Shown here piece by piece: positions 41,976-52,234 of a DNA stretch of 64,000 nt (positions are counted from its first letter, which is position 1; each line of letters begins with the position of its first letter). The DNA comes from a virus. A model generated the notes under the pieces. It was not told the DNA's origin. It searched no databases and was given only the letters and a program-made list of their open reading frames with translations. A program made the translations under genes and the position numbers. The stretch is from positions 1 to 64,000 of IMG/VR virus record IMGVR_UViG_3300021356_000016. One strand, given 5' to 3'.

Positions 41976-42848
41976 TTAGTCTTCTTCAGCTAAGGATTTA
42001 AAGAAACTCATATCGTCATCATCGTCATCAGCAGTTGCTAGAGCAGGCTGTTTTGCAGGCACATCCCATTCATCTTCAACTGAAGATGCAGCAGCTGTTT
42101 CTTTATGTTCAACAACGTTGAGTGCAAGAACACGATTGAGTTTAGTCTTCAGTTCATCATATGATTTGAAGTTTTTAGGATCAAGGAAATCATTCAGTGA
42201 ATACTGCGACTTCCAAATCTTTTCCATTTCTTCATCATCTCCTAACGACGAAGTAGATTCAAACTCAGACTTATCGTAGTTTGGATAACCTTCAAACTTT
42301 CTGATCTTCAACCGGAAGTTTGCACCTTCCCAAAAATCAAATGGGTTAACCGGAGCTTCATCATCAAACTCAGGATGCATTTGATCGTTGATCTTATCAA
42401 AGATTTTCTTACCGTACTTGTAAAGATAAACATTGCCTTCACGTTCTGGTCGTGCTGGATCTTTGACTACGTAAATGTTTGAGATGTAGTTAAGGCGGCG
42501 CTTTTGATCACGTGCTTGTTGTTTGCCAGCATCGGTGCCGTTGTTCCAAAGCTGTGAGTTCAAATCACCGCAAGGATCCTTTTCACCAATGGTAGTTAGA
42601 CTGTTTTCAATGTACCAACCACCCGGACCTTGGAATCCATGGCTAAACAATCTCACATATGGTAGATCTTCGCCTGCTGATGGAGGAAGAAACCGAATGA
42701 TAGCTGAGCCATTCCCGGCTTTGTCTACTTCTGGTTTCCAAAAACGGTCGTCCTGCGCACGGTTTGTGTTTTGTACTTTGTTTGTCTCGGAGACAATCTT
42801 GTCGTACATCGACTTGCTGGATTTTTTTAACTCTGAAAATGTGGTCAT
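41976..42848 (-). CDS. gp32: single-stranded DNA-binding protein gp32
   Basis: This 290-residue protein is the T4-type ssDNA-binding protein that coats replication and recombination intermediates. It has the basic N-terminal LKKSSKSMYDKIV segment (LAST-like), a core with AIIRFLPP, LFSHGFQGPGGWYIENSLTT and ARDQKRRLNYISNIYVVKDP, and an acidic DDDDDDMSFFKSLAEED tail that recruits partners. Only one Cys (Cys93) is present in the segment that holds the zinc ligands in T4, so the zinc site is absent. GAGGTAAT precedes the ATG, and a sigma70-like promoter lies upstream. A strong terminator follows. Confidence 0.95.
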   Translation of the reverse strand: MTTFSELKKSSKSMYDKIVSETNKVQNTNRAQDDRFWKPEVDKAGNGSAIIRFLPPSAGEDLPYVRLFSHGFQGPGGWYIENSLTTIGEKDPCGDLNSQLWNNGTDAGKQQARDQKRRLNYISNIYVVKDPARPEREGNVYLYKYGKKIFDKINDQMHPEFDDEAPVNPFDFWEGANFRLKIRKFEGYPNYDKSEFESTSSLGDDEEMEKIWKSQYSLNDFLDPKNFKSYDELKTKLNRVLALNVVEHKETAAASSVEDEWDVPAKQPALATADDDDDDMSFFKSLAEED

Positions 42849-42911
42849 ATGTATTACCTCGTATTTTTCTGTATGTTGTATTGTCCACGTTATTCATTAT
42901 GTAACTAGTAT

Positions 42912-42941
42912 ATGGTATCATGTGATAGACCGTATTGTCAA
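42912..42941 (-). promoter_or_regulatory. sigma70-like promoter for gp32
   Basis: On the minus strand TTGACA (42941-42936) is followed after 18 bases by TACCAT (42917-42912). It overlaps the end of gp59 and lies about 64 bases before the gp32 start. The -35 is a perfect consensus; the -10 is 4/6. Confidence 0.55.
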
Positions 42942-43520
42942 CAGTCTTCGTTTAACTAGCTCCCTATATTTTTTCTTATCAATAGAGAAAAAGCCAACTG
43001 ATTTTTCTATCTTCTTCATCACCTCCTCTGCAACTGGATCTTTTAGTTTTAAGTGCCAATGCTCTAAGTATAAACCTAGAACCTGTAGTATGACAAGTGT
43101 GTTTAGTGAGATTTGTTTTCCTAAATACCACTTCAATAAAGGTGGGTGCTGACCGCACTTTACTCGAATCACATCATCGACTGTAAGGTCATCATCATGC
43201 ATACAATCTTGTATAAATGAAAGATCATTCTGAAATTGATAAGTCATTCCTTCATTTTCTATCTTCCACTGTTTGTATGTTTGTTCACTCATATTACCCA
43301 CCCAAACATTCGTGTCTTCTAAAAAATTAGATAGGAAAAAATCTTTGACCTTTGGACCAAACTTCTTTTCTATCTTTTGGAATATGTATTTATCTTTTCG
43401 CCTTTCAAATGCGGCAGCGCTTACCTTTACCTTTCCGTTATATGTATGGAAATTGTAGTCACTATTGAAGTGTTTTTTTAACGCAAGATACGTCTTATAT
43501 GCTTCGTAACCAGAGGACAT
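42918..43520 (-). CDS. gp59: helicase loader gp59
   Basis: This protein of 200 residues matches T4 gp59 (217 residues), which loads the gp41 helicase onto gp32-coated DNA. Shared features are the early YKTYLALKKHFNSDYNFHTY, then KVSAAAFERRKDKYIFQKIE (T4 has RVSDAAYQKRRDKYFFQKL), FFLSNFLEDTNVWVGNMSE, and a helical C-terminus with LLKWYLGKQISLNTLVILQ. ATG 43520 directly follows the gp33 stop; a TTG at 43541 with AGGAG ten bases upstream is an alternative. It forms a unit with gp33 before and gp32 after. Confidence 0.9.
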   Translation of the reverse strand: MSSGYEAYKTYLALKKHFNSDYNFHTYNGKVKVSAAAFERRKDKYIFQKIEKKFGPKVKDFFLSNFLEDTNVWVGNMSEQTYKQWKIENEGMTYQFQNDLSFIQDCMHDDDLTVDDVIRVKCGQHPPLLKWYLGKQISLNTLVILQVLGLYLEHWHLKLKDPVAEEVMKKIEKSVGFFSIDKKKYRELVKRRLLTIRSIT

Positions 43521-43521
43521 A

Positions 43522-43746
43522 TTAGATCGGTAGTGTAGCAAACTTAGTATTCTCCTTCAACAAGTTAGACTGATTTGCTTCTAACTCTATCATTATACGA
43601 ATTTTCTCATTTAAAAGTGATGCAGCAGACTCTATTTCTATGTTGTTTTTCTCACAGTAATAGCATATTGCATCTATATAGTCTATTTTCTTTTCATTAA
43701 CTAATCTTTCTATTACTAATGAGAAAGAAGTTTTGTTGAACAACAT
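43522..43746 (-). CDS. gp33: late transcription coactivator gp33
   Basis: This 74-residue protein fits gp33, which bridges RNA polymerase and the sliding clamp at late promoters. It has FSLVIERLVNEKKIDYIDAI, then CYYCEKNNIEIESAASLLNE and a KFATLPI end. This pattern is known from gp33 of marine T4-like phages (T4 gp33 itself is 112 residues). Three ATG codons occur in a row at the start; 43746 is best because GGAG lies six bases before it. It precedes gp59 and gp32. Its presence fits the TATAAATA late boxes in the structural region. Confidence 0.85.
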   Translation of the reverse strand: MLFNKTSFSLVIERLVNEKKIDYIDAICYYCEKNNIEIESAASLLNEKIRIMIELEANQSNLLKENTKFATLPI

Positions 43747-43748
43747 CA

Positions 43749-44153
43749 TCATCTCCTATAAAAAATATGATTTCCAATCGTAACGGTTTTCTTCAATTTA
43801 CTGGCCCAGTAAGGATTGCTCCTTGTTGTATGGAAATAGATTGAACCATACGTAGGATCCTTATACTTACCTCTCAGTATTTTTGAACTCAATTTTTTAA
43901 TGCGCTTATACAGTTTTTTATCTTTTGGAACATCTGATATTTTATCATGTGTCCAAGAAAACTGTTTGTGTTGATAGACTACTTCGCAAATTGAGTTAGG
44001 ATATTTTTTTGATCTAACACGACTCAACGTAACGTGCCCAACTGCAATTTGTCCTTGTTTTGATTCACCTCTTGCCTCATGGTATATGTTTAGTGTCAAA
44101 CAATCTAGAGGCGTAGCAGCTAAGGCAGCTGCTACTATCATTTCTTTAGACAT
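43749..44153 (-). CDS. SleB-type cell wall hydrolase (endolysin)
   Basis: This 134-residue protein is a Hydrolase_2/SleB family peptidoglycan hydrolase. It has the LNIYHEARGESKQGQIAVGH block with the family's HEARGE motif (His25-Glu30), then RVRSKKYPNSICEVVYQHKQ, a FSWTHD motif, and GSIYFHTTRSNPYWASKLKK near the end. A short hydrophobic N-terminus (MIVAAALAATPLD) could be a weak export or signal-arrest segment. Since gp5 lacks a lysozyme domain, this is the likely lysis enzyme. No holin was recognised beside it. Confidence 0.88.
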   Translation of the reverse strand: MSKEMIVAAALAATPLDCLTLNIYHEARGESKQGQIAVGHVTLSRVRSKKYPNSICEVVYQHKQFSWTHDKISDVPKDKKLYKRIKKLSSKILRGKYKDPTYGSIYFHTTRSNPYWASKLKKTVTIGNHIFYRR

Positions 44154-44155
44154 AG

Positions 44156-44374
44156 TTACTTCTTGTTTATAAAACCTTGTAGTTTTTCTGCCTGTTTTAT
44201 GATCTCTTCCGGTGTAATCATTTTTGGCAAATATTTTTCCGCTTCTTTATAGAGCTCTTTATTTGCCTCAAATGCTTTCCATGCTAAGTCCAGATTCATC
44301 TGATATTGCCTGTCAAGATTATCCTTTGCCATCTGGAGTAGATAAAGCCTTACTTCATATGGTGATTTGCTCAT
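44156..44374 (-). CDS. conserved small T4-like phage protein, unknown
   Basis: This 72-residue protein begins MSKSPYEVRLYLLQMAKDNL and has a KMITPEEIIKQAEKLQGFIN helix at the C-terminus. This layout is conserved in T4-like marine phages, but the function is unknown. ATG 44374 is chosen because GGAGGAA lies upstream; the longer reading begins within the previous gene. It sits between a small gene and the endolysin. Confidence 0.75.
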   Translation of the reverse strand: MSKSPYEVRLYLLQMAKDNLDRQYQMNLDLAWKAFEANKELYKEAEKYLPKMITPEEIIKQAEKLQGFINKK

Positions 44375-44375
44375 C

Positions 44376-44537
44376 TTAGATTCCTCCGTAACCTGCTTTG
44401 CGCAGCTTTGCATCAAGGTCTACACGGTCGACCGCAGATTCTAGATCTGCACGGTGACGACGATAATAGATTGCCGAACGTGTGACAGCTTCTCTTGCTG
44501 CAATCCAAGACTTGAACCAATTTTTAATTTTACTCAT
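44376..44537 (-). CDS. small basic protein, unknown
   Basis: This 53-residue protein (MSKIKNWFKSWIAAREAVTR, then YYRRHRADLESAVDRVDL) is amphipathic at the N-terminus. ATG 44537 is preferred because AGGAG lies before it. A longer reading starts in the tmRNA terminator region and is unlikely. It is the first gene after the tmRNA locus. No family was recognised. Confidence 0.6.
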   Translation of the reverse strand: MSKIKNWFKSWIAAREAVTRSAIYYRRHRADLESAVDRVDLDAKLRKAGYGGI

Positions 44538-44586
44538 AACTTTTCTCCTGTGTGTGTTGTGTGTGTAAAATTTGCTCCGTTTGGGC

Positions 44587-44610
44587 AAAAAGGACGGAGC
44601 AACTCCTCCT
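44587..44610 (-). terminator. intrinsic terminator of the tmRNA
   Basis: On the minus strand AGGAGGAG-TTG-CTCCGTCCT forms an 8-bp stem with a bulged G, followed by TTTTT. It starts eight bases after the tag stop codon and ends the tmRNA transcript. Confidence 0.8.
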
Positions 44611-44617
44611 GCTACTC

Positions 44618-44662
44618 TTAGGCAGCTAGAGCCGTTTCAGGCTCAAAGTAAGCATCGTTTGC
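44618..44662 (-). other. tmRNA proteolysis-tag reading frame
   Basis: Reading from the resume codon GCA (44662-44660) gives ANDAYFEPETALAA then TAA. The AND start and ALAA end are the classic features of tmRNA tags, the latter recognised by ClpXP-type proteases. Confidence 0.93.
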
Positions 44663-44749
44663 GTTTACTTTAGTTTGCTAGTTTTACATCATTCGCCTGA
44701 TGAATCGTCAGTTTACCTTATCTCACCACGTCGAAACCTTGTCACCCCC

Positions 44750-44825
44750 ATCAAAAGTACTCGCACCATTCCCTACGGGCAGTTGGTTGGTGGTCCTCGT
44801 CTGCCAACGATTGTTCGAGTACTTT
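44750..44825 (-). other. tmRNA intervening (processed) segment
   Basis: 76 bases separate the CCA end of the acceptor piece from G1 of the coding piece. AAAAGTACTCG-type arms (44826-44816 and 44763-44753) form a perfect 11-bp stem that brings both ends together, as expected for a segment removed by processing. Confidence 0.88.
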
Positions 44826-44896
44826 TGGTGGAGGTGGGGAGAATCGAACTCCCGTCCGCAATGCCTCCAGTTTACATCATACGATTATTCTGATTA

Positions 44897-44980
44897 AGAA
44901 ACATACTAGGTTTTGGATTCGAACCTTGTCCTAGTGTTGTCCATCTGCACGTCCCACCGTACTGAACCTAGTATGTTTCT
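44897..44980 (-). ncRNA. tRNA-like element with a 16-bp closing stem in the tmRNA leader
   Basis: AGAAACATACTAGGTT (minus strand from 44980) pairs perfectly over 16 bp with its complement at 44912-44897, enclosing 52 bases. Inside are a D-arm-like GTAC-GGTGGGAC-GTGC hairpin and a T-loop-like GGTTCGAATCC (44925-44915). No anticodon stem can be drawn and the T stem has only two good pairs, so a working tRNA is unlikely. It lies between the tmRNA promoter and the acceptor piece. Confidence 0.6.
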
Positions 44981-44992: not shown

Positions 44993-45021
44993 ATTCTAAC
45001 AAGTACTAATCACAATGTCAA
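44993..45021 (-). promoter_or_regulatory. strong sigma70-like promoter of the tmRNA locus
   Basis: TTGACA (45021-45016), a 17-base spacer, and TAGAAT (44998-44993) on the minus strand. The -35 is perfect and the -10 is 5/6. It overlaps the gap after the secreted-protein gene and points into the tRNA-like element and tmRNA. Confidence 0.8.
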
Positions 45022-52148: not shown

Positions 52149-52158
52149 CTAAATAGTG

Positions 52159-52234
52159 GGACGGTAGCTCAGCGGTAAGAGCAGCGTTCTTATAAGGCGT
52201 TGGTCGGAGGTTCGAATCCTCCCCGTCCTACCAA
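52159..52234 (+). tRNA. tRNA-Ile (anticodon UAU)
   Basis: The cloverleaf is complete: acceptor GGGACGG/CCGTCCT (one G-U pair), D arm GCTC-AGCGGTAA-GAGC, anticodon arm GCGTT-CTTATAA-GGCGT, and T arm GGAGG-TTCGAAT-CCTCC. The anticodon loop gives UAU for AUA codons. The 3' ACCA is encoded. AUA is used fairly often in this AT-rich genome. Confidence 0.95.

Follow-up and report, generated by a model that had tools for sequence, protein, structure and literature searches.

The window analyzed here, a stretch of 64,000 nucleotides (nt) comprising positions 1 to 64,000 of the IMG/VR virus record IMGVR_UViG_3300021356_000016 (a viral fragment of 65,373 bp), contains on its minus strand a complete circularly permuted gene for transfer-messenger RNA (tmRNA) at 44886-44571. 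This is probably a functional beta-type permuted tmRNA gene with its own promoter, whose transcript would also carry a tRNA-like leader RNA and a structured spacer RNA. A wider reading, for which the balance of acceptance and doubt is about even, is that phage two-piece tmRNA genes may be cargo carriers: the spacer and the front stretch would be two slots in which unrelated small genes can be exchanged, and a new family of trans-acting tRNA-like RNAs, which is single-copy per phage, occurs also in tRNA arrays and is used by phages bringing their own tmRNA, would be one of the widespread cargoes.

The gene gave a full-length match of 136.4 bits to RF04321 (tmRNA_permuted, gathering score 47) and a match of 125.9 bits to RF01850 (beta_tmRNA, gathering score 84) over model positions 1-331, and ARAGORN independently called a permuted tmRNA with the tag ANDAYFEPETALAA. 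The alpha-type model RF01849 gave a partial match of 39.4 bits, below its cut-off of 50, and the cyano-type model RF01851 reached 41 bits, below its cut-off of 70. Because RF01850 is exceeded and the alpha and cyano models stay below their cut-offs, the RNA is beta-type. An earlier interpretation of the letters without database searches (the sequence-only reading) had proposed a phage-encoded permuted two-piece tmRNA on the minus strand, with a T arm and CCA end, a stemmed removable loop, the pair G3-U70, a 14-codon tag and a terminator; all of these were located, the stem of the loop measuring 10-11 bp, and both RF04321 and RF01850 scored well above gathering. The interval it gave, 44587-44890, marks the right locus, with the corrections that the 3' end extends slightly past 44587 and that a conserved leader at 44980-44897 lies outside it, upstream. 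The elements of the locus are as follows.

44993 to 45021, minus strand: candidate sigma-70-type promoter, TTGACA-17-TAGAAT with TG before the -10 box (11/12 matches in a consensus scan; a sequence match only)
44897 to 44980, minus strand: leader RNA, a member of a tRNA-like family, with the model core at 44974-44903, a 16-bp outer stem, and D-arm-like and T-loop-like elements (from fold, covariation and model)
44826 to 44886, minus strand: acceptor piece, with P2 5' strand, T arm, acceptor 3' strand with U70, and ACCA end (from the RF04321 and RF01850 alignments)
44750 to 44825, minus strand: spacer (intervening segment) of 76 nt, with a 10-bp closing stem and a conserved 54-nt core common to the loci L040 and L080 (from folds and spacer comparison)
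44571 to 44749, minus strand: coding piece, with the GGGGGUG 5' acceptor strand with G3, the TLD D-loop region, P2 3' strand, tag and 3' structure (from covariance models, ARAGORN and folds)
44618 to 44662, minus strand: tag frame ANDAYFEPETALAA with stop TAA (from ARAGORN and an in-frame codon insertion in the relative L201)

The P2 5' strand AATCGT (44886-44881) finds its partner ACGATT at 44708-44703, and the acceptor 3' strand CACCTCC (44836-44830), followed by the ACCA that ends at 44826, faces the GGGGGTG with which the coding piece begins at 44749, so that the alanine identity pair G3-U70 is present together with an ACCA 3' end. The closing stem of the spacer counts 11 bp when the last A of CCA is included, GAT precedes the coding piece, and the 3' hairpin reaches about 44571. 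Resume codon and AA-ending tag are both in place, the tag occupying 44662-44621 (14 codons, ending in LAA) and its stop codon 44620-44618. In the relatives L201, L202 and L206, in which coding genes are about 72-82% identical, both mature pieces are near-perfectly conserved, and an insertion in the tag of L201 is one whole codon, in frame. A T4-late-like CATAAATA lies at 44987-44980, and the promoter arrangement is the same in L201 and L202. Where the promoter match is good in other phages, the -10 box most often ends about 7 nt ahead of the acceptor piece, which would put the start of transcription at the tmRNA. The window lineage has about 104 nt here, the leader being placed between the two.

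One exact pattern detected at least 119 permuted-tmRNA-like stretches in IMG/VR, most of which are called permuted tmRNA by ARAGORN. G3-U70 is kept in 131/131 resolved viral genes, many of them collected with a pattern that fixes one stem, and, in the fairer count, in 12/12 distinct acceptor stems, in which pairs 4-7 vary by compensation. Viral tags end in AA in all 131 cases and in LAA in 122. From established tmRNA biology, the tmRNA likely functions as such, and it is a further member of an already published class to which a beta-type case is added. That it might be a non-functional relic captured from a host and passively carried is scarcely credible: ssrA fragments in prophages do arise through imprecise excision (PMC9004378), but here a complete structure far above threshold is conserved near-perfectly against diverged flanks, has its own promoter-like site, occupies a site common to many phages, and belongs to genes whose acceptor stems covary with G3-U70 kept. 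A tag-independent decoy, in which host SmpB or nucleases directed at tRNA would be titrated by the phage tmRNA or by the leader RNA and no ribosome would be rescued, is very unlikely; the leader is indeed a single-copy tRNA-like RNA devoid of a decoding arm, but the tag frame of the window tmRNA is complete and ends in LAA, and the insertion in the relative comprises a whole codon.

In the acceptor pieces of L222, L277, L287, L301, L316, L318 and L320, the T loop is GGCAGTA or a close variant and not TTCGATT. A GGATCGA D-loop region mostly accompanies this GGCAGTA-type T loop, an unusual elbow.

We infer transcription, processing, charging and tagging, as well as trans action of the leader and spacer RNAs. 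The locus would be transcribed from its own promoter and host tRNA-processing enzymes would cut the precursor, RNase P at GAT|GGGG, with nucleases trimming to CCA. Acceptor RNA and coding RNA would then pair through P2 and the acceptor stem, alanine would be charged through G3-U70, and, after binding of host SmpB, the LAA-ending degradation tag ANDAYFEPETALAA would be added on stalled ribosomes. As no SmpB gene was found in the 26 records tested (G000 and T4 included, the phage record of the window being a 65-kb fragment), the tmRNA would rely on SmpB of the host. Cutting of the precursor would also set free the leader RNA, a new family, and the spacer RNA, as cargo exchanged by phages. The takeover or replacement of host ribosome rescue that the sequence-only reading had implied is plausible.

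The leader is an 84-nt hairpin between promoter and acceptor piece with a fold z of -4.1 versus shuffles, and it scores 92.7 bits with the leader model R1. Its conservation in L201, L202 and L206 equals that of the mature tmRNA, and the sequence upstream of it has diverged. A first pass over 123 tmRNA predictions gave no stem comparable to the leader. Pattern scans for its core, with two sub-patterns, found 99 and 80 stretches, and the resulting family set comprises 104 usable viral loci with 65 distinct sequences, 55 of which form an ungapped alignment. In this alignment 92.4% of the cells are paired and double changes occur in 13/20 pairs, and the covariation score is 0.572 as compared to 0.174 +/- 0.011 after shuffling and at most 0.12 when slid. 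Most of the covariation resides in a ten-pair outer stem, to which two pairs of the D-arm-like hairpin and the closing pair of the GACAA loop (C-G, A-U, G-C) add. Family and covariation rule out a plain terminator or a chance hairpin.

With a two-pair T stem, a GACAA loop and no CCA, where a tRNA has five T-stem pairs, a seven-base anticodon loop with U33 and a CCA end, the leader does not qualify as a tRNA and obtains no ARAGORN call; the leader model gives weak hits of 20-25 bits, among them the tRNA-Ile of the window. Searching the leader against Rfam with an E-value limit of 10 returned chance-level matches, with no family near its gathering score, and a known riboswitch, ribozyme or tRNA was rejected accordingly. 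There was no convincing match by BLAST, the only method used there, in 50,697 records of cultured phages, and none in 72,556 plasmids; its absence from 299 bacterial genomes of the tested phylum is weak evidence, as stricter filters were applied and no positive-control genome was included. The leader family is listed in none of the RNA databases searched and is apparently undescribed in the sources searched.

Members of the family occur at several kinds of places. About 38-40 loci lie in tRNA arrays, where the distance to the preceding tRNA gene is usually 10-22 nt and that to the following one often 10-30 nt. A leader-type RNA forms the exact spacer of a permuted tmRNA in 20 loci, and in about 16 it stands in front of an acceptor piece as in the window (an automated position listing gave 18 such loci, but L303 and L310 among them belong to tRNA arrays). 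The remaining 28 loci are elsewhere; for 15 of these, a permuted tmRNA lies on the same strand no more than about 4 kb away. By the covariance model, each of 18 virus records, some of them 149-160 kb long, has exactly one strong copy, which excluded a multi-copy mobile repeat or a repeated punctuation signal; the model found no copy in the T4 genome, and homology to the T4 RNAs C and D was likewise discarded. The leader was not found in 199 other loci searched (the first tmRNA and gp32 sets), nor in 31 further whole records. A permuted tmRNA is present in 15 of the 18 leader-bearing records, the other three being fragments of 45-70 kb, and in 7 of 18 gp32-related control records (Fisher p = 0.015), which is suggestive only of an association between leader RNA and permuted tmRNA across records.

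An explanation to be set against a released leader RNA is that this is an ordinary phage permuted tmRNA, with leader hairpin and spacer serving only to aid its processing in cis ("tRNA punctuation"): the 5' end of the acceptor piece would be set by RNase P or RNase Z through recognition of the tRNA-like leader, and the precursor would be held together by the spacer stem. The usual position of the family, which directly follows a CCA end or directly precedes a tRNA or acceptor piece on the same strand, is as this explanation would have it, as are the conservation of spacer stems as stems and the weak likeness of the leader family to tRNA (21.8 bits on the tRNA-Ile of the window). However, there is one strong leader copy per record despite many tRNA junctions in the arrays, most viral permuted tmRNAs have no leader, about a quarter of the leader loci lie outside tRNA arrays and show no fusion to a tmRNA, and the near-invariant unpaired core exceeds what a processing signal should need, so that a purely cis-acting role is rather unlikely. 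A trans-acting RNA released by tRNA-type processing would fit better than a cis signal, because there is one copy per genome, its places change and its unpaired core is almost invariant.

The spacer was compared among 94 distinct viral sequences. Their closing stems average 11.4 pairs, as compared to 6.5 when halves are swapped between spacers, 82 of them end in GAT, and their interiors split into many unrelated groups. The spacer core of the window is identical to that of L040/L080 at 53 of 54 positions, four stem pairs differ and all are still paired, although only 57/75 and 112/163 positions of the mature pieces are identical. Conversely, the mature pieces of the window and L201 are identical at 75/75 and 156/163 positions, yet the spacer is wholly different, and the replaced spacer of L201 is common to L202 and L206; the tmRNAs of such relatives are 96-100% alike. 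The interior is thus kept in a diverged tmRNA and replaced in a conserved one, which is the behaviour of an exchangeable cargo. The spacer core of the window was not found in cultured phages.

Some spacers appear to carry small genes. A ribosome-binding-site-led open reading frame (ORF) of 22-49 codons that ends exactly at the TGA of the terminal TGAT was found in six distinct spacers; eight passed the ORF test as such, two of them without the TGA ending, and none did in one shuffle of the set. The encoded peptides are mostly short and hydrophobic, with one hydrophobic stretch (for example in L031, L044, L010, L254 and L309), and those of L031 (MKPYEVIVITLLTILILVHVFF) and L044 (MKTYEFICIVSLITVICIHVFF) are related. 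The exchangeable spacer content is apparently undescribed in the sources searched. A second spacer family (L013, L016, L294) has a T-arm-like GGTTCGAATCC at its end and a CGAAGGGCAC...GGTGG element and is possibly another tRNA-like RNA. Two more families recur, one in L089, L094, L101, L113, L002, L024 and L042 and the other in L088, L115, L120 and L058, with the conserved cores ...CCGAG..TTCGGTAGCAAACA... and ...TTAGATGAAAGAAACC...GGGCTCTAATGGG..., and an Rfam search of loci including these two families gave no match above threshold.

At the level of sequence, anatomy, covariation, conservation, exchange and a single copy per record are shown, and several points weigh against the overall interpretation. 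The putative T-arm-like pairing of the leader does not vary within the main alignment, and RNAalifold favours another hairpin at that place; a divergent member, L317, appears to keep this pairing with changed bases. The association between leader and tmRNA is modest (p = 0.015), and the control records are mostly shorter, which introduces a size bias. The spacer family of the window consists of two distinct sequences only, so that a functional core rests on one comparison, and recent recombination of spacers between phages could mimic a conserved core. Lastly, cleavage by RNase P and RNase Z is an assumption taken over from tmRNA biology.

Matches to gp32, gp33, gp59 and baseplate wedge families of PHROG place the virus in the T4 superfamily, as the sequence-only reading had anticipated in calling the carrier T4-like; gp23 was not found on the 65,373-bp fragment. 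The nearest relatives of its gp6 are in Pelagibacter phage HTVC008M, methylophage Melnitz and the rhizobial and Caulobacter T4-like phages phiN3 and Cr30. Downstream of the tmRNA lie the following features.

44376 to 44588, minus strand: ORF of 70 amino acids (aa) directly downstream of the tmRNA, with ATG at 44538 (no family match; start region kept in relatives)
41976 to 43752, minus strand: gp33 late-transcription regulator, gp59 helicase loader and gp32 single-strand DNA-binding protein, a syntenic block (from PHROG matches)

The tmRNA lies upstream of this gp33-gp59-gp32 block, and of the 47 gp32-related viral loci that extend 3.5 kb or more upstream, 16 have a permuted tmRNA at the same position upstream of gp32, always on the same strand. 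Alpha-type and beta-type tmRNAs are both found at this place, in different phages. An ORF of 86 aa at 44156-44416 (minus strand), between the tmRNA and the endolysin gene, weakly matches the PHROG entry "decoy of host sigma32" (E 0.0012), and the sole tRNA gene of the window is tRNA-Ile(TAT) at 52158-52233 (plus strand), which gives the above 21.8 bits with the leader model.

With respect to the host, the alphaproteobacterium suggested by the sequence-only reading finds no support: the RNA is beta-type by covariance model, an alphaproteobacterial origin was rejected on the scores of the alpha and cyano models, which that reading had singled out for a search, and alpha-type tmRNAs do occur at this place in other phages. 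The type of a tmRNA is in any case a weak host marker, as phage Melnitz has an alpha-type tmRNA and a non-alpha host (PMC9004378). Exact matches to the acceptor piece point to Oxalobacteraceae (Herminiimonas, Noviherbaspirillum), but occur also in unrelated one-piece tmRNAs of Kaiserbacteria and are not decisive. These one-piece tmRNAs (L209, L213, L214, L215 and L218, from Candidatus Kaiserbacteria and relatives) contain the exact 32-nt T-arm/acceptor sequence of the window, and ARAGORN reads odd tags (ANKVAR...) in them.

The surroundings matter more than the tmRNA itself, since they include a conserved RNA family with a clearly covarying fold that is not in the searched databases. They also suggest one reason why phages might keep the permuted form, namely that its by-product is a processed RNA slot. 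If this is true, more than one functional product would come from the maturation of a single phage RNA, and phage regulatory RNAs and micropeptides would have to be sought in permuted-tmRNA spacers, which annotation normally passes over.

Among known systems, the leader resembles the stable RNAs C and D of T4 (rnaC/rnaD) in that these are small RNAs inside a phage tRNA operon and rnaC also has the T-arm sequence GGGTTCGAATCCC, but the T4 genome contains no match to the leader model. Like the HDV-like theta ribozymes (PMC10879173), it is a structured RNA adjoining 3' ends of phage tRNAs, whereas its fold and conserved core differ, it has no Rfam match and there is one copy per record. Like the YrlA Y RNAs (PMC7790460), it is a non-coding RNA that has a tRNA-like domain but does not serve in decoding; it matches no Rfam family. 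As to the tmRNA, two-piece tmRNAs had already been published in 2022 for Melnitz, a phage of Methylophilales, and for Pelagibacter myophages (PMC9004378), so that the novelty implied by the sequence-only reading does not hold; there, too, a T4-superfamily phage has the permuted tmRNA upstream of the gene for the late-transcription coactivator (gene 33), but that of Melnitz is alpha-type with a glutamine riboswitch nearby, whereas that of the window is beta-type with a tRNA-like leader and no riboswitch match. Compared to the genes described by RF04321 and RF01850 (PMC11915505), both of which it matches over the full length, the gene of the window has a structured spacer of 76 nt instead of the 42-49 nt in three betaproteobacterial-type genes, and a leader inserted between promoter and acceptor piece.
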